DNA of 64,000 bases, from assembly GCF_036429475.1 (NCBI RefSeq), contig NZ_CP144125.1, positions 2,108,001-2,172,000 on the forward strand, written 5' to 3'. The stretch's first letter is position 1, and each line of letters begins with the position of its first letter. The DNA is from Halalkalicoccus sp. CGA53. GTDB taxonomy: Archaea; Halobacteriota; Halobacteria; Halobacteriales; Halalkalicoccaceae. The notes beneath the pieces were generated by a model that was given only the letters and a program-made list of their open reading frames with translations, did not search any database and had not been told where the DNA came from. This document shows positions 23,979-35,818 of the stretch, in pieces. Both the position numbers and the translations under genes were made by a program.

Positions 23979-24143
23979 TCACTCGAACCGCTCGAACGGC
24001 TGCTCGCAGCCGTGACAGAAGTGCATCGACCGACAGAGAGACGGCCCCTTCGGGTGCTCGCGCTCGGTCTCGGTCGACCCGCAGTACGGACACTCGGCGG
24101 GACCGTCGTCGGCGACGTCGACGCTCGGGTCGAGACCCCTCAT
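23979..24143 (-). CDS. 54-aa zinc-ribbon protein: detached C-terminal domain of PaaD
   Basis: Cysteines at 18, 21, 37, 43 and 46 form CPYC ... LC ... CHGC. The overall shape CPYCGSTET ... SLCRSMHFCHGCEQPF equals the C-terminal zinc ribbon of bacterial PaaD (CPRCGS ... CKALWRC--C--PFD). It starts by a 4-nt ATGA overlap with paaD and closes the paa operon, so the two halves are made together. The function is inferred: assistance in Fe-S or diiron maturation of the epoxidase, together with the DUF59 half. Confidence 0.8.
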   Translation of the reverse strand: MRGLDPSVDVADDGPAECPYCGSTETEREHPKGPSLCRSMHFCHGCEQPFERFE

Positions 24144-24595
24144 ACGCTCAGCCCGAACTCCCGCAGGCTCTCTCGCCCGCGCTCGGTAACGAGATCGATC
24201 GACCACTCGGGGCTCCAGACGAGTCTGATCTCGGCCGAGTCGACTCCGTCCGCGCTCGCGGCCGCCTCCCGGATCTCGTTTGTGAGCATCCTCCGCGCCG
24301 GACAGCCCGTGTACGTGAGCGTCATCGTTACCGTCGCGTGGGTCTCCTCTCTCTCCTCGATCGCCACGTCGTAGATCAGCCCCAGATCGACGACGCTCAC
24401 CGGCATCTCGGGGTCTTCGACCTCGGAGAGCGCGTCCCAGACGCGTGCCTCGACGCCCTCGCTTCCCGCACCCGTGTTCGGAAGCTCCGCGTGGCCCTCG
24501 CCCTCGCGGTACTCGGTGTACGCACAGGGAGTCGGTTCCTCGGAGAGCGTACCCTCCTCGCTCACCCCGTCGTCGAGGTCGAACTCGCCGCTCAT
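24140..24595 (-). CDS. paaD: phenylacetyl-CoA epoxidase subunit PaaD (DUF59 part only)
   Basis: A 151-aa protein with an acidic N-terminal extension of about 45 residues and then the MIP18/DUF59 domain: DPEMPVSVVDLGLIYDV, VTMTLTYTGCPARRML and RLVWSPEWSIDLVTERGR. PaaD is needed for assembly of the phenylacetyl-CoA epoxidase complex. Bacterial PaaD continues into a zinc ribbon; here the gene stops before it and the ribbon is encoded by the next gene. It overlaps paaC by ATGA (24592-24595). Confidence 0.92.
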   Translation of the reverse strand: MSGEFDLDDGVSEEGTLSEEPTPCAYTEYREGEGHAELPNTGAGSEGVEARVWDALSEVEDPEMPVSVVDLGLIYDVAIEEREETHATVTMTLTYTGCPARRMLTNEIREAAASADGVDSAEIRLVWSPEWSIDLVTERGRESLREFGLSV

Positions 24596-25401
24596 GGCTC
24601 ACCCCGGAGCCGCGTCGGCTCCGCGAACCCGAGTTCGTGGTACGTCGCGGTGAACGAATCGTGGAGGTCGTCCCAGTCCGACGTGTGAGAGCCGTCGCGA
24701 CCGATCGTCTCCGGTCGCGAGACCGACTCCGGCTCGGGCACCTCGATTCCCAGCGACTCCAGATACGGGACGACCGTCTCCAGCCACTCGGTCCGCAGGT
24801 CGTCGAGAGATTCGGTCCGAAAGCCGGCGTCGACGATCATCTCCTCGCTGTCGCCGGGTTCGAACAGCGTCAGCGCGTACGGGAACAGTCGCTCGGTCGC
24901 GGCCTGTACACGCTCGCTCCCCTCGGACTCGCTCGCCAGCCGGTCGAGCCAGTTCGAGGCGTGGTCTCGGTGATACGACTCCTCGGCGATGACCTTCCCC
25001 ACGCGGTCCCGGATCGGGACGTAGCTCGAGTCGACGAGCGCCTCCAGGCGCAGGCGTTCGGCCGTGTCGTAGAGGTAGCTCCTGACGACGGCGTCCGCCC
25101 AGTCGCCCTCCGCGAACGCGAGTTCGCAGAGCGTCGCGTGACGGAACTCGGTAGGTGGACGCTCCCAGAGGTACTCCGCCTCGGCGTAGCCGAGGTCGGC
25201 GAGACAGTCGTACCAGAGCCGCGCGTGGCCGAACTCGTCCTGTGCGATGTTCGCGAGCGCGAGATCCGACTCGATCGTCGGCGCGTAGATCTGCCACTCG
25301 GTGTAGCGCTCTGCGATCACGAACTCGTCGTCGGCGAGCCGGAAGAGGAGCTCACAGACCGCTTCGCGTTCTCGCTCGCCCAGGTCCTCGCGGTCGATCA
25401 C
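24592..25401 (-). CDS. paaC: phenylacetyl-CoA epoxidase subunit PaaC
   Basis: Structural ferritin-like partner of PaaA in the 1,2-epoxidase. The 269-aa helical protein contains LANIAQDEFGHARLWY and KVIAEESYHRDHA. The frame is open upstream, but the upstream residues are arginine/glycine-rich antisense-like sequence. The GTG that overlaps the paaB stop by GTGA (25398-25401) gives VIDREDLGERE as start and keeps operon coupling. Confidence 0.92.
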   Translation of the reverse strand: MIDREDLGEREREAVCELLFRLADDEFVIAERYTEWQIYAPTIESDLALANIAQDEFGHARLWYDCLADLGYAEAEYLWERPPTEFRHATLCELAFAEGDWADAVVRSYLYDTAERLRLEALVDSSYVPIRDRVGKVIAEESYHRDHASNWLDRLASESEGSERVQAATERLFPYALTLFEPGDSEEMIVDAGFRTESLDDLRTEWLETVVPYLESLGIEVPEPESVSRPETIGRDGSHTSDWDDLHDSFTATYHELGFAEPTRLRGEP

Positions 25402-25724
25402 GACTCGGCCTCCTCGCGCTTTCGCGCCGCCTCGCGCTGTTCCTCCTCGCTCTCTTCGACCTCCGCGGCGAAACTCGCGTCGACCCGGTTGTACGTCATC
25501 GCCCACCGGTAGGCCTTGTCGGTCGCGCCGCCGAAGGTCGCCTCGTCGGTGTCGACCTCGCTCACCTCGTCCCTGGGAACGACCCAGAGGCTGTTCGTCT
25601 GCATCCGACGGCCGTGCTGGATCTGTGCGAACAGCTTCGCCATCTCCTTATCGGGCGCGTGGACGTTCCCGCAGTGGGTGTGGTACTTCCCCGGCCGCTC
25701 CTGTCTGAACACTTCCCAGATCAT
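25398..25724 (-). CDS. paaB: phenylacetyl-CoA epoxidase subunit PaaB
   Basis: A 108-aa protein, MIWEVFRQERPGKYHTHCGNVHAPDKEMA, with the short conserved PaaB fold (SLWVVPRDEV near residue 45). It ends in a charged C-terminal helix (EESEEEQREAARKREE). PaaB bridges PaaAC heterodimers in the epoxidase. It lies 1 nt after paaA and overlaps paaC. Confidence 0.94.
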   Translation of the reverse strand: MIWEVFRQERPGKYHTHCGNVHAPDKEMAKLFAQIQHGRRMQTNSLWVVPRDEVSEVDTDEATFGGATDKAYRWAMTYNRVDASFAAEVEESEEEQREAARKREEAES

Positions 25725-25725
25725 A

Positions 25726-26667
25726 CTAATCGGCCGCCTGTGGTGCTTTCGACCCCTCTCGCTCCCAGCGATCCATCGACTCGCGCACCCACGAGACCGC
25801 CTCCTGGCGCCGACGCCGCGCGCCGATCTGTTCGTGACTGCCCTCGTACTCGTTTCTCGCGATCGTCCAGAACTCGTCCCAGTCGAGGTCGTCGTACTCC
25901 AGTTCGTACCTCCCCGAGCGCTCGTCGTACTCGATTCGAGGAGTCTCTGGGATCTCCAGACCGTGTTTCTCCGCCTTCGGGATGTAGGCGTTCAGGAAGG
26001 CCTGACGGAGGTCGTCGTTGCTCGCCGTCTTCAGCCCGACGTCCTGGGCGAAATCGTTGTGGACGCTGTCCTTGTTCGGCGGCCCGAAGAACTGGATGAT
26101 CCGCGGCCACCACTCGTCGAAGACCTCCTGCACTCGTTCCCGGTTCGCCCGCGAACTCCCCATGAGTTCCCGCAGGATGTCCTCGCCGTGTTTGACGTGA
26201 AATCCCTCCTCGAAACAGACCTTGTCCATCGCGTGGGCGTAGGGCTCCCAGCTGGTCGCCTTGAGCGTCGCCTGCCTGCGCATCGCCCCGCCGTCGACGA
26301 AGAAGTCGATCATCGGCGCCTCGTACCACGAGTCGACGGGGTAGTGGAAACAGTTGAGGAACTTCCCGTCTCCCCGTTCGAGTTCGTCTAACATCTCCTC
26401 TCTCGTCTTCACGCCCAGCGTTTCGGCCGCCCGGTAGAGCAGCTGGGCGTGGCCGATCTCGTCCTGCACTTTCGCCGTACAGGCGAGTTTTCGGTCGATG
26501 CTCGGGGCGTGGCGGGTGAACTGTTTGTCCAGATAGCCGCCCATCACCTCGCTGTTGGCGTGGAACTGGATCATCCGCGTCGCCGCCTCCCTGTACTCCT
26601 CTGGCAGGTCGTGTTTCGGGCTGAACGCCCGCGGGCCCGCACGCTCTCTGACCGTCTCCAAGTCCAT
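25726..26667 (-). CDS. paaA: phenylacetyl-CoA 1,2-epoxidase catalytic subunit PaaA
   Basis: Diiron monooxygenase subunit that converts phenylacetyl-CoA to ring-1,2-epoxyphenylacetyl-CoA. The 313-aa helical protein carries iron-ligand motifs KVQDEIGHAQLLYRA and CFEEGFHVKHGEDIL, and the PaaA-specific FHYPVDSWYEAPMIDFFVDGGAM. The start is the internal ATG giving MDLETVRERAGPRA; an upstream GTG/ATG frame would run into the promoter. It is the first gene of paaABCD plus the ribbon gene, divergent from an HTH_10 regulator. The reductase paaE is not in the window. Confidence 0.95.
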   Translation of the reverse strand: MDLETVRERAGPRAFSPKHDLPEEYREAATRMIQFHANSEVMGGYLDKQFTRHAPSIDRKLACTAKVQDEIGHAQLLYRAAETLGVKTREEMLDELERGDGKFLNCFHYPVDSWYEAPMIDFFVDGGAMRRQATLKATSWEPYAHAMDKVCFEEGFHVKHGEDILRELMGSSRANRERVQEVFDEWWPRIIQFFGPPNKDSVHNDFAQDVGLKTASNDDLRQAFLNAYIPKAEKHGLEIPETPRIEYDERSGRYELEYDDLDWDEFWTIARNEYEGSHEQIGARRRRQEAVSWVRESMDRWEREGSKAPQAAD

Positions 26668-26692
26668 AACGGACGATTGTTCACGAACCCAC

Positions 26693-26722
26693 AAACCGGT
26701 TCACCCGTCTATAGACTGGTTT
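26693..26722. promoter_or_regulatory. imperfect inverted repeat in the paaA / HTH_10 divergent promoter
   Basis: Arms aaaccggt (26693-26700) and actggttt (26715-26722) pair at 7 of 8 positions around a 14-nt spacer that contains tctatag. It lies between the two divergent starts and overlaps the regulator TATA region. Candidate operator for the adjacent regulator; inferred from position and symmetry only. Confidence 0.35.
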
Positions 26723-26749: not shown

Positions 26750-27388
26750 ATGATCGAGGAGTGTCTCGTCGTCGAGGTCCGTGTGACGGGCGACGACTGT
26801 CCGCTCGCGGAGGCGAGTTCCGGGACCGAGATCGAGGCGGAACCCCCACAGCGCCGCGCCGACGGCTACGCGCTGCTCCGATGCAGCGTCGACGCGGAAG
26901 GCGGCGAGGCGGTCGCCGCCGCTCTCGATACCGACGACCGGATCAGGTACCTCCACGTCTCGCGGGCCGACGACCGGACGAACCTTCGGTGTCTCTCGAA
27001 ACGGCGCTGTGCCGTCCACGCGCTGACCGACGTCGGCTTCATGGTCGAACGGCTTCGGTACCGCGACGGCGTCGAGCGCTACACGGGGGCGGTCGTCGGC
27101 CGCGACGTGCTTCGGGGCGTGCTCGACAGGGCCGGCGAGACGGGTGGCGTGACGCTCGAGCGCGTCTACCCCCTGGGAACCGAAGAGGAGGGTGCGGTCG
27201 CCGCCCGGTGGGATCTCACGTCCCCACAGGAGGAGGCGTTGCGGGTCGCGCTCGAATCGGGTTACTTCGAGATCCCCCGGGAGTCGACCGCGAGCGAGGT
27301 CGCCTCCCGAATCGGCATCAGCAAGTCCGCGTTCCTCGAACGGCTCAGACGCGGGCAGTCGTCGTTGCTGGAGCGGACGCTGGGTTAG
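26750..27388 (+). CDS. HTH_10 (bacterio-opsin-activator type) transcriptional regulator
   Basis: A 212-aa protein. The C-terminal 55 residues match the HTH_10 domain: LTSPQEEALRVALESGYFEIPRE, then ASEVASRIGISKSAFLERLRRG. The N-terminal 150 residues form the partner region typical of haloarchaeal regulators of this class and include a cysteine-rich LRCLSKRRCAVH segment. It is divergent from paaA with 82 bp between start codons, so control of the paa operon, perhaps by phenylacetyl-CoA, is the natural hypothesis. The inducer is not visible. Confidence 0.85.
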   Translation: MIEECLVVEVRVTGDDCPLAEASSGTEIEAEPPQRRADGYALLRCSVDAEGGEAVAAALDTDDRIRYLHVSRADDRTNLRCLSKRRCAVHALTDVGFMVERLRYRDGVERYTGAVVGRDVLRGVLDRAGETGGVTLERVYPLGTEEEGAVAARWDLTSPQEEALRVALESGYFEIPRESTASEVASRIGISKSAFLERLRRGQSSLLERTLG

Positions 27389-27441
27389 GCCGGGGTCGCC
27401 CTGTCAACCGAGCGGGCGGCGACGACCCGAGAGGCCGAAGG

Positions 27442-27450
27442 TTCAAATAT
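27442..27450 (+). promoter_or_regulatory. TATA-like box ahead of the 11-codon ORF and HerA-like gene
   Basis: ttcaaatat is centred 27 nt before the ATG at 27473, not before the GTG of the large gene at 27505. The transcript would therefore begin at the ATG of the short ORF. Confidence 0.5.
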
Positions 27451-27472
27451 CAGGGTCGCGAGGTTTCGAGCG

Positions 27473-27508
27473 ATGAGTAGACGAGTCCGTGGAGGGATTG
27501 CGCCGTGA
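27473..27508 (+). CDS. 11-codon leader ORF coupled to the HerA-like gene
   Basis: The ATG, ten further codons (SRRVRGGIAP) and TGA overlap the GTG start of the next gene by GTGA. The TATA box spacing makes this ORF leaderless. A Shine-Dalgarno-like GGAGG (27491-27495) inside it lies about 9 nt before the downstream GTG. Short and arginine-rich; it is more likely a translation-coupling or leader device than a functional peptide. Confidence 0.4.
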   Translation: MSRRVRGGIAP

Positions 27509-28959
27509 GTACCGAACAGGCGATCGGCGTCGGGAAGCGCGTCGACGGCAACGAGCGCGTGGAACTGCCGGCCGTGGAGGTGCTCACGGGCCGGGGGTTC
27601 GTCACCGGAAAGAGCGGCAGCGGGAAGTCGAACACCGCGAGCGTGGTCATCGAGGAACTGCTCGAGGCCGCCTTCCCCGTACTCGTCTGTGACACCGACG
27701 GCGAGTACTACGGGCTGAAAGAGGAGTACGAACTGCTGCATGCGGGTGCTGACGAGGAGTGTGACATCCAGGTCGGCCCCGAACACGCCGAGAAGGTCGC
27801 GGAGCTGGCACTGGAGGGGAACGTTCCCGTGATCCTCGACGTCTCCGGGTATCTGGACGAGGGGGCCGCGGACGAACTGTTGCGGGAGACCGCCCGCCAC
27901 CTCTTCGCGAAAGAGAAGAAGCTGAAGAAGCCCTTTTTATTGGTAGTCGAGGAGGTCCACGAGTACATCCCGGAGGGCGGCGGGATGAACGAGACGGGAC
28001 GAATGCTGATCAAGGTCGGAAAACGAGGACGGAAACACGGCCTCGGCATCGTGGGGATCAGCCAGCGGCCCGCCGACGTCAAGAAGGACTTCATCACGCA
28101 GGCGAACTGGCTCGTCTGGCACCGGCTCACGTGGGACAACGACACGGACGTCGTGAAACGGATCGTCGGCCCGGAGTACGGCGAGGCGGTCTCGGATCTC
28201 GGCGCGGGCGAGGCGTTCGTCCAGACCGACTGGACCGACGAGGACGTCAGGCGGGTGCAGTTCGATCGAAAGCGGACGTTCGACGCCGGCGCCACGCCCG
28301 GCCTCGACGACTTCGAGCGCCCGGAACTGAAATCGGTGAGCGACGCGCTCGTCGGCGACCTCCAGGAGATCTCGGAGTCCCAGCAGCGCGAGCGGGATCG
28401 GGTCGCCGAACTGGAGGCCGAGATCGAGCAGCGCGACCGACGGATCGGCCAGCTCGAACGCGAACTCGCCTCCGCACAGGACATCTCGACGGCCGCGAAA
28501 CAGCTCGCGGGGGCGTTTTCGGGACCGGAACCGATCCAGACGACGTTCGGGGAGGGCGACGAGGAGCTGGCGGCGCTTCGGGACCGAATCGGCGAACTGG
28601 AGCGGGCGCTCGAGGCGGAAGCGGCCACCCCCGGGCCGGACGACGGAGAGAGCCGTGACGGATCGCACGGCGGTATCCCCCGCGCCCGGTCGCCAGTTCT
28701 GGCGGCGGCGATCGGACGGGCGGCCGAGCGCTCTCCCTGTTCGGAAGAGGACGCCTGGACGGTACTCGAGCGCCTCGCCCCCGGCGGCTCGACGCTCCAC
28801 GACCTCGACGGAGAGGTCGAGATCCCGATCCACCGCCTCTGGTCGCTCCTCGAAGAACTCTCGACCACGCCGTTCGTCTCCCGGGCGACCGACGGGACGT
28901 ACACGCTCGACGGGGAGGCGATTTCCCGACGCGAGCGATCCGACGCGAGCGCGGACTGA
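27505..28959 (+). CDS. HerA-like P-loop ATPase (DUF87 family)
   Basis: A 484-aa ATPase. Walker A is GKSGSGKS (35-42), Walker B FLLVVEE (144-150), and SQRP (186-189) carries the downstream arginine typical of HerA/FtsK-type hexameric DNA motors. Residues about 288-326 form a coiled coil (heptads of ERDRVAELEAEIEQRDRRIG type). The C-terminal 80 residues (SEEDAWTVLERLAPGGSTLHDLDGEV ... YTLDGEAI) look like a winged helix. It may translocate DNA; no nurA or mre11/rad50 gene is adjacent, so it is not the classical resection motor. GTG start, coupled to the 11-codon ORF. Confidence 0.82.
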   Translation: MSTEQAIGVGKRVDGNERVELPAVEVLTGRGFVTGKSGSGKSNTASVVIEELLEAAFPVLVCDTDGEYYGLKEEYELLHAGADEECDIQVGPEHAEKVAELALEGNVPVILDVSGYLDEGAADELLRETARHLFAKEKKLKKPFLLVVEEVHEYIPEGGGMNETGRMLIKVGKRGRKHGLGIVGISQRPADVKKDFITQANWLVWHRLTWDNDTDVVKRIVGPEYGEAVSDLGAGEAFVQTDWTDEDVRRVQFDRKRTFDAGATPGLDDFERPELKSVSDALVGDLQEISESQQRERDRVAELEAEIEQRDRRIGQLERELASAQDISTAAKQLAGAFSGPEPIQTTFGEGDEELAALRDRIGELERALEAEAATPGPDDGESRDGSHGGIPRARSPVLAAAIGRAAERSPCSEEDAWTVLERLAPGGSTLHDLDGEVEIPIHRLWSLLEELSTTPFVSRATDGTYTLDGEAISRRERSDASAD

Positions 28960-28996: not shown

Positions 28997-29758
28997 ATGC
29001 GAACTACCGACAGCGACCGTGTGCGGACGATCACGTTCGACCGCCCGGACGTGTTGAACGCCTTTACGACCGACCACGCGGCCGAACTCGCCGATCACCT
29101 CTCCGATCTCCATCCCGACGAGCAGCACGCGGTGGTGCTCACCGGCGAGGGGCGGGCGTTCAGCGCCGGCGGTGACGTCGAGGCGATGGCCGACCGCGAG
29201 GAGTCGCCCGCCGAGGCGTTCGATCGGATCACCGAGACGTTCGGACGGCTCGCGGAGGAGGCCCTGTCGTGTCAGGTCCCGATCGTCGCGCGGGTGAACG
29301 GCGACGCGGTCGGGGCGGGCCTCGCGCTCGTCGCCCTCTCCGACTTCGCCTACGCCGCCGACTCCGCGCGCTTCTCCGCGGCGTTCGTTCGTGTCGGACT
29401 CGTTCCCGACACCGGCGGGACCTTCCTCCTCCCGCGGCTCGTCGGCCTTCGGGCCGCGAAGGAGCTCTCGTTCACCGGGCGTTTTTTCGACGCGAACGAG
29501 GCCGCCGAGATGGACCTCGTAAACGAGGCGGTCCCCGAGGGCGAACTGGACGACCGGGTCGAGGAGCTGCTCTCGGTCCTGCGGGCTCGGCCGACGAGGA
29601 CGATCGGCCTCGCGAAGCGGGCGATCCACGCGAACCTCGGGAAGGGGGTCGAGGGCGCACTCGACTACGAGAACCACGTCCAGGCGCTCGCCTACGGGAC
29701 CGACGAACACGGCGAAGGGGTCTCGGCGTTCCTGGAGGGCCGCGATCCGGAGTTCTAG
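28997..29758 (+). CDS. enoyl-CoA hydratase/isomerase family protein
   Basis: A 253-aa crotonase-fold protein. The first oxyanion motif is GEGRAFSAGGDVEAM, the second is ARVNGDAVGAGLALVALSDFAYA, and GLVPDTGGTFLLPRLVG follows. The glutamates expected for full hydratase chemistry are not both obvious, so PaaG/PaaB-type isomerase or PaaF-type hydratase are both possible. In phenylacetate breakdown such enzymes act on the epoxide/oxepin-CoA and on 2,3-dehydroadipyl-CoA; the nearby paa operon makes that role likely. The ATG was chosen over a longer upstream frame that overlaps the ATPase gene. Confidence 0.85.
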   Translation: MRTTDSDRVRTITFDRPDVLNAFTTDHAAELADHLSDLHPDEQHAVVLTGEGRAFSAGGDVEAMADREESPAEAFDRITETFGRLAEEALSCQVPIVARVNGDAVGAGLALVALSDFAYAADSARFSAAFVRVGLVPDTGGTFLLPRLVGLRAAKELSFTGRFFDANEAAEMDLVNEAVPEGELDDRVEELLSVLRARPTRTIGLAKRAIHANLGKGVEGALDYENHVQALAYGTDEHGEGVSAFLEGRDPEF

Positions 29759-33798: not shown

Positions 33799-35082
33799 TC
33801 ACTCCCGTTCGTCGAACACCCGCTTCACCTTCCCCACCTCGGTCCGTTCGAGTTCGCCCGGCCCTTCCAGTCGGAGCTCGTCCGGCGTGAGCGAGAGGAC
33901 GTTCTTCAGACGCTCGTCGATCCGTTCTCGTAGACTCTCCCTGTCGTCGACCTCGTCCGTTAACTCGACCGTGATCGCGATCCGATCCAGCCCGTCCTCG
34001 GTACCGAGGTCGATCCGGTAGTACGGCGCGACAGCCTCGAAGTCCAACACTACTGACTCGATCTGGCTGGGGTAGACGTTCACTCCGCGAACGATCAGGA
34101 GGTCGTCGGTTCTCCCCGTCACGTTCTCCATCCGGACGAGCGTCCGCCCGCAGGCACACTCACCGTAGTGGAGGCTGCTCAGGTCGCCGGTCCGGTAGCG
34201 AACGACGGGAAACGCCTCCTTGGTGAGCGAGGTGAAGACGAGTTCGCCCTCCTCGCCCTCGGGGAGCACGTCTCCCGTACGCGAATCGATCACCTCCGGG
34301 TAGAAGTGGTCCTCGTGGACGTGGAGTCCGTCCTGGGCCTCGTGACACTCGATCGAGACCCCCGGACCGATCACCTCCGAGAGCCCGTAGATGTCTATCA
34401 CCGTCGCGTCGAGCGCACGTTCGATCTCCGCGCGCATCGGTTCGGTACACGGCTCGGCACCGATTATCACCGTCGAGAGCGCGAACTCGTGTGGATCGTA
34501 CCCCATCTCCCGCGCCGTCTCGGCGACGTAGAGCGCGTACGAGGGCGTGCAGGTGAGTACGTCGCTCTCCAGGTCCGCGAGGAACTCGACCTGTCGCTGC
34601 GTGTTGCCCCCGCCGATCGGGATGACGGTCGCTCCGAGGCGTTCGCAGCCGTCGTGGACGCCGAGGCCGCCGGTGAAGAGGCCGTAGCCGTAGGCGTTCT
34701 GGACCGTCTGCCCGGGGTCGACGTCCGCCGCGACGAGCGAGCGGGCCATCACCTCGCTCCAGAGCTCCAGGTCGCCTTCCGTGTAGGCGACCACCTTCGG
34801 CTTCCCGGTCGTCCCCGACGAGGCGTGCAGCCGCAGGATCTCGCTCCCGTCGACCGCGAACATCCCGTCGGGGTAGTGGTCGCGGAGGTCCTCCTTCGTC
34901 GTGAACGGCACCTCGGGGAGCTCGTCGATCCCAGCTACCTCGCCGGGATCGATCCCCGCGTCCGCGAAGCGCTCGCGGTAGAACGGGACGTTCTCCGTGG
35001 CGTGGGCGAGCGTCTCTCGCAGTCGCTCGTCCTGCCACTCGGTGAACCGCTCTCTCGACCAGCGCTCGCGGTCTGTGTGCAT
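33799..35082 (-). CDS. paaK: phenylacetate--CoA ligase
   Basis: Activates phenylacetate to phenylacetyl-CoA using ATP, the entry step of the pathway whose epoxidase is encoded at 24-26.7 kb. The 427-aa protein shows the AMP-binding loop SSGTTGKPKVVAYTEGDLELW near residue 90, the PaaK-typical YGYGLFTGGLGVH, YGLSEVIGPGVSIEC and VRYRTGDL, and ends with the C-terminal domain lysine in ERTEVGKVKRV. The ATG giving MHTDRERWS is chosen; the upstream open frame crosses the amidase relic. Confidence 0.95.
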   Translation of the reverse strand: MHTDRERWSRERFTEWQDERLRETLAHATENVPFYRERFADAGIDPGEVAGIDELPEVPFTTKEDLRDHYPDGMFAVDGSEILRLHASSGTTGKPKVVAYTEGDLELWSEVMARSLVAADVDPGQTVQNAYGYGLFTGGLGVHDGCERLGATVIPIGGGNTQRQVEFLADLESDVLTCTPSYALYVAETAREMGYDPHEFALSTVIIGAEPCTEPMRAEIERALDATVIDIYGLSEVIGPGVSIECHEAQDGLHVHEDHFYPEVIDSRTGDVLPEGEEGELVFTSLTKEAFPVVRYRTGDLSSLHYGECACGRTLVRMENVTGRTDDLLIVRGVNVYPSQIESVVLDFEAVAPYYRIDLGTEDGLDRIAITVELTDEVDDRESLRERIDERLKNVLSLTPDELRLEGPGELERTEVGKVKRVFDERE

Positions 35083-35113
35083 GTCCGCTCTGTACCGGGC
35101 ACCGACAAAACCC

Positions 35114-35250
35114 TCACGATCGTTGGAGTACTTCCTCGAACCCCTCGGCCCACGCGAGCAGTCGCTCGTCCGCGCCGAAGCGTGCCGAACACTGAACTCC
35201 GATCGGCAGTCCTCCCGTTCCCTATCGGAAGCGTCACCGTTGGGAGCCAG
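35114..35250 (-). pseudogene. 3'-terminal fragment of a second amidase gene
   Basis: In the correct frame this encodes LPIGVQCSARFGADERLLAWAEGFE followed by EVLQRS and stop, equivalent to the C-terminus of the intact amidase at 35992-37272. Upstream it continues as LPTVTLPIG after a one-base frameshift, and similarity ends near 35250. The first 60 bases from the stop-proximal end (35134 on) differ from the intact gene (36003 on) at only two positions. Everything upstream of the fragment has been replaced by the lipoprotein gene. Confidence 0.75.
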
Positions 35251-35284
35251 AGGAAACGAATCAGACGCTTTGCAGAGATGCGAA

Positions 35285-35818
35285 CTAGTCAATCCCGGTC
35301 GTACCAGCCCGTTCTCCATCGACCTGAACGGTTACTTCGTCGGGGATGACGTCCCGTTCATCTTTCACGCGAAGAACTACCGAATGGGGGGCCTCGTCGT
35401 CTACTTGACCGCCCGTCGGAGCAACAGTTTCCAGGCTCACGTTGAGACCGGTTTCCGTCCGTGAGACCTCGTTCACAGCCAGTTCGTAGTCGCTCGACCA
35501 GTACCCTGCGACGATGATGAGAAGGTACGACTCCTCGAAGTCGGTCTCTCGAACGAACTCGTCTAGCTCGTCCCGTCGTTCGAGTCGTTCATCGGCGTCC
35601 GCTGAATCGGTGATGATCGTCCGGTACGCGTTCGGGGTGTCCCGCCAGTTGATCTCCTCGGCGACGCGCCTGTTGTCCTCGAGGACGATGCCATTCCAGT
35701 GATGGGCATCGATGCTCATCTCGGCGGGCGTCGTGGTGGTCGACCCCCGTCCCAAACATCCCCCAGTCACAGTTGAGAGCGGGGCAACTGCTAAAGCGAG
35801 GAAGCCACGGCGGTCCAT
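35285..35818 (-). CDS. small haloarchaeal lipoprotein of unknown function
   Basis: A 177-aa protein with a Tat-type start MDRRGFLALAVAPLS and lipobox TGGC (C21), followed by a Thr-rich spacer. The mature part (about 30-177) shows no family I recognise; beta-rich segments such as YLLIIVAGYWSSDYELAVNEV and APHSVVLRVKDER suggest a beta-sandwich. Codon use is more AT-rich than its neighbours, and the 173 bp upstream are AT-rich too. It sits between two copies of an amidase 3' end, which points to insertion into the locus. Confidence 0.7.
   Translation of the reverse strand: MDRRGFLALAVAPLSTVTGGCLGRGSTTTTPAEMSIDAHHWNGIVLEDNRRVAEEINWRDTPNAYRTIITDSADADERLERRDELDEFVRETDFEESYLLIIVAGYWSSDYELAVNEVSRTETGLNVSLETVAPTGGQVDDEAPHSVVLRVKDERDVIPDEVTVQVDGERAGTTGID

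Follow-up and report, generated by a model that had tools for sequence, protein, structure and literature searches.

The 64,000-nucleotide stretch of DNA analysed here (the window) carries a gene for a 484-residue P-loop ATPase of the DUF87/HerA-like type (27505..28959, + strand). The protein matches the DUF87 model of Pfam with 41.9 bits (PF01935; cut-off 23.2) and HerA_C with 23.1 bits (cut-off 22). HerA equivalog models score far under their cut-offs (NF040819 reaches 61.7 bits versus 970, and the other HerA models behave alike), which is why we name the product HerA-like and not HerA; the HerA entries of PADLOC and PDB match it over parts only. Matches at E ≤ 0.001 occur in 57 of the 59 genomes searched, some of them being distant paralogues. 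Upstream and co-directional lies the gene of an HTH_10 regulator (26750..27388, + strand; PF04967, 62.8 bits), which starts with ATG and ends with TAG at 27386-27388. This regulator and an enoyl-CoA hydratase gene, beside phenylacetate genes, are the neighbours of the ATPase in the window. According to Pfam, phenylacetate catabolism genes (PaaA/PaaC, PaaB, an FeS-assembly type protein, enoyl-CoA hydratase and an AMP-binding ligase) surround the ATPase in three regions, at 24140-26694 (- strand), 28997-29758 (+ strand) and 33799-35319 (- strand).

An 11-codon ORF, the presumed leaderless fore-cistron of the ATPase, begins 84 nt after the end of the regulator gene (27473..27508, + strand; ATG AGT AGA CGA GTC CGT GGA GGG ATT GCG CCG TGA, predicted peptide MSRRVRGGIAP*). 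The centre of a TATA-like box, TTCAAATAT (27442..27450, + strand), lies 27 nt 5' of its ATG, whose A is at 27473. Within the micro-ORF stands a Shine-Dalgarno (SD)-like GGAGG (27491..27495, + strand), with 9 nt between this motif and the GTG of the ATPase gene, and the TGA of the micro-ORF overlaps this GTG in the tetranucleotide GTGA (27505..27508, + strand). Since the ATPase frame is closed on its 5' side by a TAG at 27478, GTG 27505 is the first possible ATG, GTG or TTG start of the ATPase. The genome of the window is haloarchaeal and comprises 4.04 Mb in two contigs; GGCTGGATCACCTCCT, the sequence expected for the predicted 3' end of its 16S rRNA, occurs in it once. The box, the micro-ORF, GGAGG and the TGA/GTG overlap had been described in a first-pass annotation, and reading the window base by base confirmed each of them. 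The single locus nevertheless proves little, because a box, an ATG and a frame open into GTGA arose together in 302 of 20,000 Markov-1 shuffles of its own upstream region (1.5%); taken by itself, in a 64-kb window that holds many genes, the arrangement would deserve no attention.

We fetched 110 ATPase loci, which, after removal of seven duplicates, left 103 distinct ones. In the following, 'own genus' denotes the genus of the window and 'Halalkalicoccus genus' the family's other genus (g2), whose locus L005 is identical in sequence to L031 of H. paucihalophilus. An ATG micro-ORF of 7-26 codons that ends exactly in an NTGA overlap, the criterion by which the set is defined, precedes the ATPase at 61 of the 103 loci. 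It has 12 codons at 41 loci, 7 at seven, 11 at six and 15 at three, and 9, 18, 24 and 26 codons at one locus each. Mechanical matching gave 67 loci with and 36 without a micro-ORF; six (L018, L070 and L104-L107) were reassigned by judgement to the latter set since their ATG either falls inside the putative TATA box serving a leaderless main ATG or is followed by a better one. The 61 loci comprise the window, seven loci of the Halalkalicoccus genus, a large Natrialbaceae-type block (by record title Natrinema, Natrialba, Natronococcus, Haloterrigena and others) and the more distant L020, and the 42 loci without a micro-ORF come from Haladaptatus, Halobacterium, Haloferax, Halostella and others. 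The two congeners (G001 and G002) hold C-terminal pieces of the ATPase only, and the window alone represents the own genus in this set.

Conservation, which the first-pass annotation had proposed as a check on its reading, is thus borne out at these 61 loci, where ATG, frame, overlap and promoter spacing are kept. A box, an ATG and an open frame coincide at 58 of the 61 micro-ORF loci (expected 0.046 per locus), compared with one of the 42 others (expected 0.032 per locus), six of which were placed by judgement. The annotated CDS of the Natronorubrum bangense orthologue (NZ_CP031307.1) begins at the predicted GTG, and the incomplete PLSDB gene table lists no micro-ORF for this record. Ten relatives, spot-checked with crudely called ORFs, have neighbours of the ATPase that vary between families; the unit that is conserved thus seems to comprise promoter, micro-ORF and ATPase.

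On a protein tree, built by a quick method with SH-aLRT support only and containing an implausibly long branch for L102, the micro-ORF is present in 52 of 52 rows of one clade (support 88) and in eight of eight rows of another (support 94), with L020 standing apart. No exception lacking it was found within these two clades, which hold 60 of the 61 loci. The tree requires three switches between presence and absence of the micro-ORF; that the ATPase micro-ORF originated only once is conceivable. The tree further requires at least ten changes in micro-ORF length among the 61 loci, all of them in frame; as a rough estimate, ten in-frame changes would occur by chance about 2 times in 100,000 if one change in three falls in frame.

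We then counted codon changes between closely related loci whose micro-ORFs have the same length (25 pairs), setting aside the first and last codons and any pair that showed either no difference or more than 12. The micro-ORF accumulated 15 synonymous and 70 non-synonymous changes, spread over codon positions 1, 2 and 3 as 34, 46 and 41, with no excess at the third. The same 25 pairs show 41 synonymous and 42 non-synonymous changes (positions 22, 23 and 58) in ATPase codons 2-12. By these counts, the interior of the micro-ORF bears no sign of selection on the peptide, while its ATG, frame and overlap stay. A function of the peptide itself was rejected, as the codons of the micro-ORF change without synonymous bias.

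The promoter region was compared between the two sets. Among the 61 loci, AT content is raised between -36 and -27 relative to the micro-ATG, with a maximum of 0.83 and a peak at -34/-33; the 42 loci without a micro-ORF show a weaker rise (maximum 0.64) at the same place before their main ATG. Because the rise occupies the same place in both sets, the promoter box seems to be spaced for whichever ATG comes first. For the window, with a distance of 27 nt from box centre to ATG, the leaderless start claimed in the first-pass annotation would be plausible; the position of the peak across the 61 loci, however, allows for a leader of a few nucleotides in some of them.

The two sets also differ in the main start codon, which is GTG in 52 of the 61 loci with a micro-ORF (three of these, L062, L065 and L069, have an in-frame ATG two codons 5', the start being chosen partly by judgement) and ATG in 42 of the 42 loci without one (ten of which also have an in-frame GTG within the range considered). 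In the Halalkalicoccus genus, the main start of the ATPase is ATG. The association of GTG with the micro-ORF is phylogenetically clustered, with only three changes of state on the tree, and an independent-pairs contrast yields one pair on starred branches, too few for a test.

Between -22 and -3 relative to the main start, we scored SD matches to the complement of the 16S anti-SD. At 37 of the 61 micro-ORF loci (61%) such a match is 5 nt or longer, compared with 23% when the same bases are shuffled; four of the 42 loci without a micro-ORF have one (10%), the proportion also seen in their shuffles (10%). Natrialbaceae-type loci often carry GAGGTG, GGTG or GGTGATC as SD-like motif. The first reading had proposed an SD-driven re-initiation; the enrichment over shuffles speaks for it, but the SD is weak in the Halalkalicoccus genus, where GAGG is the longest match in five of seven loci.

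Together, these results favour, at a probability of roughly 0.8, a reading in which the micro-ORF acts as a leaderless fore-cistron that hands ribosomes to the ATPase by termination-reinitiation. Translational coupling of a leaderless-type micro-ORF to the ATPase is strongly supported by the comparison of loci, since ATG, frame, overlap and promoter spacing are conserved in 61 of 103. Transcription would start at ATG 27473 or a few bases upstream, and the micro-ORF would be translated from its 5'-terminal ATG. This in-frame ATG would bring terminating ribosomes to the GTG with its SD, making translation of the ATPase dependent on the micro-ORF, and selection would maintain the ATG, the frame and the overlap, with the peptide as a by-product. 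We infer this mechanism from the sequence and from a related genus, represented by H. volcanii. According to the accessible parts of the respective reports, 72% of protein-coding transcripts in H. volcanii are leaderless (PMC4983044), SD motifs in its 5'-UTRs do not serve de novo initiation (PMC3986360), and the overlapping gene pairs tested are strictly coupled by termination-reinitiation, haloarchaea using SD motifs at gene overlaps (PMC6728339). By these rules, with a leaderless majority and SD motifs that do not act de novo, an SD-preceded GTG lying some 32 nt into the mRNA would be poorly served alone. The GTG main start does not in itself demand coupling, because native leaderless GUG starts are also described for H. 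volcanii (PMC4983044, in part).

Among the alternatives, the micro-ORF might be incidental, the ATPase mRNA having an ordinary 5'-UTR of about 32 nt with an SD, de novo initiation at GTG 27505 and an ATG that happens by chance to lie close to where transcription begins. At a single locus the arrangement has the 1.5% chance given above, and the loss of a similar arrangement before dnaG within the genus (see below) indicates that such coincidences occur. We nonetheless regard this explanation as improbable: ATG, frame and overlap were kept through at least ten length changes in the 61 loci while the codons drifted, and an SD is reported, in the available portions of two studies, not to work de novo in H. 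volcanii (PMC3986360, PMC6728339).

Somewhat more doubtful still is a regulatory leader, in which translation of the micro-ORF would sense an amino acid, the state of the ribosome or an antibiotic and gate or attenuate the ATPase, or in which the 5'-terminal AUG would mainly repress. Mutations of 5'-terminal upstream AUGs (uAUGs) in Escherichia coli both raised and lowered expression of the downstream gene, as stated in the accessible text of that study (PMC4965119), which lends this idea some plausibility. The peptide, however, is not conserved, and no residue run common to the 61 peptides was seen by eye. The region of the window's locus also folds no better than shuffles (z +1.34), and no Rfam match was found at 27300-27700. 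Gating that needs no specific signal may still take place. An RNA switch or attenuator was rejected on the fold of the window's own locus, the lack of an Rfam family and the ratio of 70 non-synonymous to 15 synonymous changes. Finally, it is hardly credible that the ATPase has its true N-terminus in the micro-ORF, the two being fused into a longer protein by programmed -1 frameshifting at GTGA. The two frames do come together at a single site in each of the 61 loci, but the bases before the overlap vary, the absence by eye of a constant slippery site led us to reject the fusion, the peptide changes without constraint, 42 loci open at the homologous main start with no micro-ORF ahead of it, and one orthologue is annotated as beginning at the GTG.

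The design, a presumed leaderless fore-cistron coupled to its main gene, recurs elsewhere in the genome, which adds to the support for the favoured reading. Four further genes were chosen by eye from candidate lists of the window's own genome, and do not represent an unbiased sample; the loci of three of them (an RNB ribonuclease, gins51 and gcvPA) were compared by tblastn. The gene of the RNB ribonuclease (L113:6025-7323, corresponding to G000:C2:466025-467323, - strand; relatives L132-L139) has a fore-cistron in all eight loci of the family that have a start, two further genomes of the family giving no match or a fragment only. In the own genus, the micro-ORF has 15 codons and precedes a GTG (two of two loci). 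In the Halalkalicoccus genus, it has eight codons and precedes an ATG (six of six), with CAGGAGG inside four of them and a weak box at L134. Among the other 22 loci, a coupled ORF occurs at L147, without an AT-rich box, 20 have none and L161 lacks a start; at L148, the tblastn comparison yielded no coupled RNB ORF.

The second gene, gins51 (L186:5155-5946, corresponding to G000:C2:2745155-2745946, - strand; relatives L202-L210 and L214), shows the fore-cistron design in ten of ten own-family loci, with 10-37 codons. All three own-genus loci contain a 13-codon micro-ORF that ends in GTGA, and in the seven loci of the Halalkalicoccus genus the TAG of the ORF directly abuts the main start. Counted from the nearest ATG, the ORF in the latter genus has 10-11 codons in four loci and 36-37 in three. 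The residues GSGMTVGD before the ATG of L205 match GSGMTVGG before the 10-codon ATG of L206, so that the two loci probably share the same ATG, with about 27 codons gained or lost in frame. In other families, gins51 forms an ATGA overlap with the tail of an upstream ORF, of the type MxRGxAxK, in 12 of 20 loci; we take this tail to be that of the primase small subunit. By match positions, all ten own-family loci have a related tail whose end lies 110-191 nt upstream, and a TTAAG box is present in all seven upstream sequences that reach that far.

The remaining two genes are conserved less widely. The gcvPA gene (L188:17073-18401, - strand) follows a 14-codon micro-ORF with an SD-like GGAGG inside, which is kept in all three own-genus genomes and in one of the five Halalkalicoccus-genus loci with visible starts (L234, without an SD); coupled ORFs are scattered in other families. 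The look-alike before dnaG is present in the window's genome and absent in both congeners, and can be read as an example of coincidence. Over 1.264 Mb of the window's genome with 918 called genes, upstream ATGs led by a TATA box and open through the main start lie in the coupled frame 31 times and in the other frame 14 times, and those without a TATA-like box 79 and 42 times, respectively; the gene caller behind these numbers is crude, relying on length, acidity and GC3 and taking the first ATG or GTG as the start. The excess is thus not specific to promoters, and a widespread class is not proven by this test; since the coupled frame is also in excess without a TATA-like box, we claim no genome-wide number. 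As a further observation, L111, L121, L129, L182 and other candidate loci of the same genome combine a short ATG ORF with a TATA-like box and an NTGA overlap.

Small coupled ORFs are also known from mycobacteria, through a paper by Shell and colleagues on RTGA overlaps. In the accessible part of this work, leaderless small ORFs coupled by RTGA are over-represented and, in some cases, the linkage is conserved and the peptide is not (PMC4633059). The shared features comprise an RTG start that is leaderless there and presumed so here, a length of 5-50 codons, a tetramer in which TGA overlaps RTG, a proposed delivery of ribosomes and, in some cases, an architecture that outlasts its peptide (PMC4633059, in part). 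Correspondingly, the window has 11 codons and GTGA, the 61 loci have 7-26 codons, and the ATPase loci conserve the coupled architecture and not the peptide. The mycobacterial ORFs differ in being bacterial and documented by transcription start site and ribosome-profiling data (PMC4633059, in part), whereas the present case is archaeal and known from sequence. The ATPase loci add an SD enrichment within the micro-ORF, an arrangement conserved at 61 loci and a contrast between clades in the main start codon. A 2025 review, in the portion available, mentions that short ORFs have been proposed to deliver ribosomes (PMC12548453), and a search of a mycobacterial translation paper for uORF and coupling terms gave no match (PMC9094748).

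Further systems resemble the ATPase loci in single respects, as described in the accessible sections of each report. The overlapping gene pairs of H. volcanii share the NTGA overlap, an SD towards the 3' end of the upstream ORF and a haloarchaeal ribosome (PMC6728339), and the window likewise combines GTGA with a GGAGG inside the upstream ORF and a 9-nt gap. Their upstream cistron, however, is a normal protein gene (PMC6728339), whereas here it spans 7-26 codons, lacks a conserved peptide and lies right behind the promoter. The uORFs in long 5'-UTRs of H. volcanii are likewise small and precede haloarchaeal genes on the same transcript, but they encode 15-31 aa within 150-250 nt 5'-UTRs, and the text at hand does not describe a coupling overlap or its conservation (PMC4983044). 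An engineered leaderless bicistronic design of Corynebacterium glutamicum combines a leaderless promoter, a translated fore-cistron and an SD before the target, and mutating either the fore-cistron's ATG or the SD lowers expression (PMC10367133); it is synthetic and bacterial, whereas the present one is natural and archaeal. E. coli mRNAs with a 5'-terminal uAUG carry this codon upstream of an SD-led gene and need it for expression of some genes, such as ptrB, but the ptrB effect was judged independent of uORF translation and a systematic stop/start overlap is not described in the available text (PMC4965119). Among the papers listed by searches of a literature in which subscription journals are thinly covered, we found no archaeal description of leaderless fore-cistron coupling, although one may exist. 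New here is therefore an archaeal, SD-assisted and conservation-supported case of a kind that is itself known from mycobacteria and from an engineered Corynebacterium device. Nor is the design unusual in the sense first suggested: it is not a one-off, recurring in two other genes of the family (RNB ribonuclease and gins51) and, according to part of the published account, in mycobacteria (PMC4633059).

A broader proposal, to which we give even odds, is that haloarchaea possess recurrent natural bicistronic starts. A leaderless fore-cistron, indifferent to its peptide, would load a ribosome behind the promoter, and an SD together with a stop/start overlap or abutment would pass it on. Such starts would arise repeatedly, let main genes drift to GTG and be able to replace a long upstream cistron, as gins51 may illustrate with the spacer, own box and 10-37 codon fore-cistron of the own family versus the direct overlap that other families show at 12 of their 20 loci. 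If true, this would provide a natural answer to what SD motifs do in archaea that mostly start leaderless, at loci that are directly testable in cultured genera, and would explain conserved GTG starts that have an SD and lack promoter spacing of their own. It would also advise caution in annotating start codons and the unannotated ORFs of 7-26 codons, and might offer a ready-made bicistronic expression device for haloarchaea.

Two minor observations concern the ATPase loci. Twenty-one plasmid records contain the ATPase; the 20 listed are all haloarchaeal by name, and all 21 are predicted to be non-mobilizable. In addition, a block resembling GTGTTCGGACTGTAC, possibly an operator, recurs between the AT-rich or TATA box and the micro-ATG at L010 and many Natrialbaceae-type ATPase loci.
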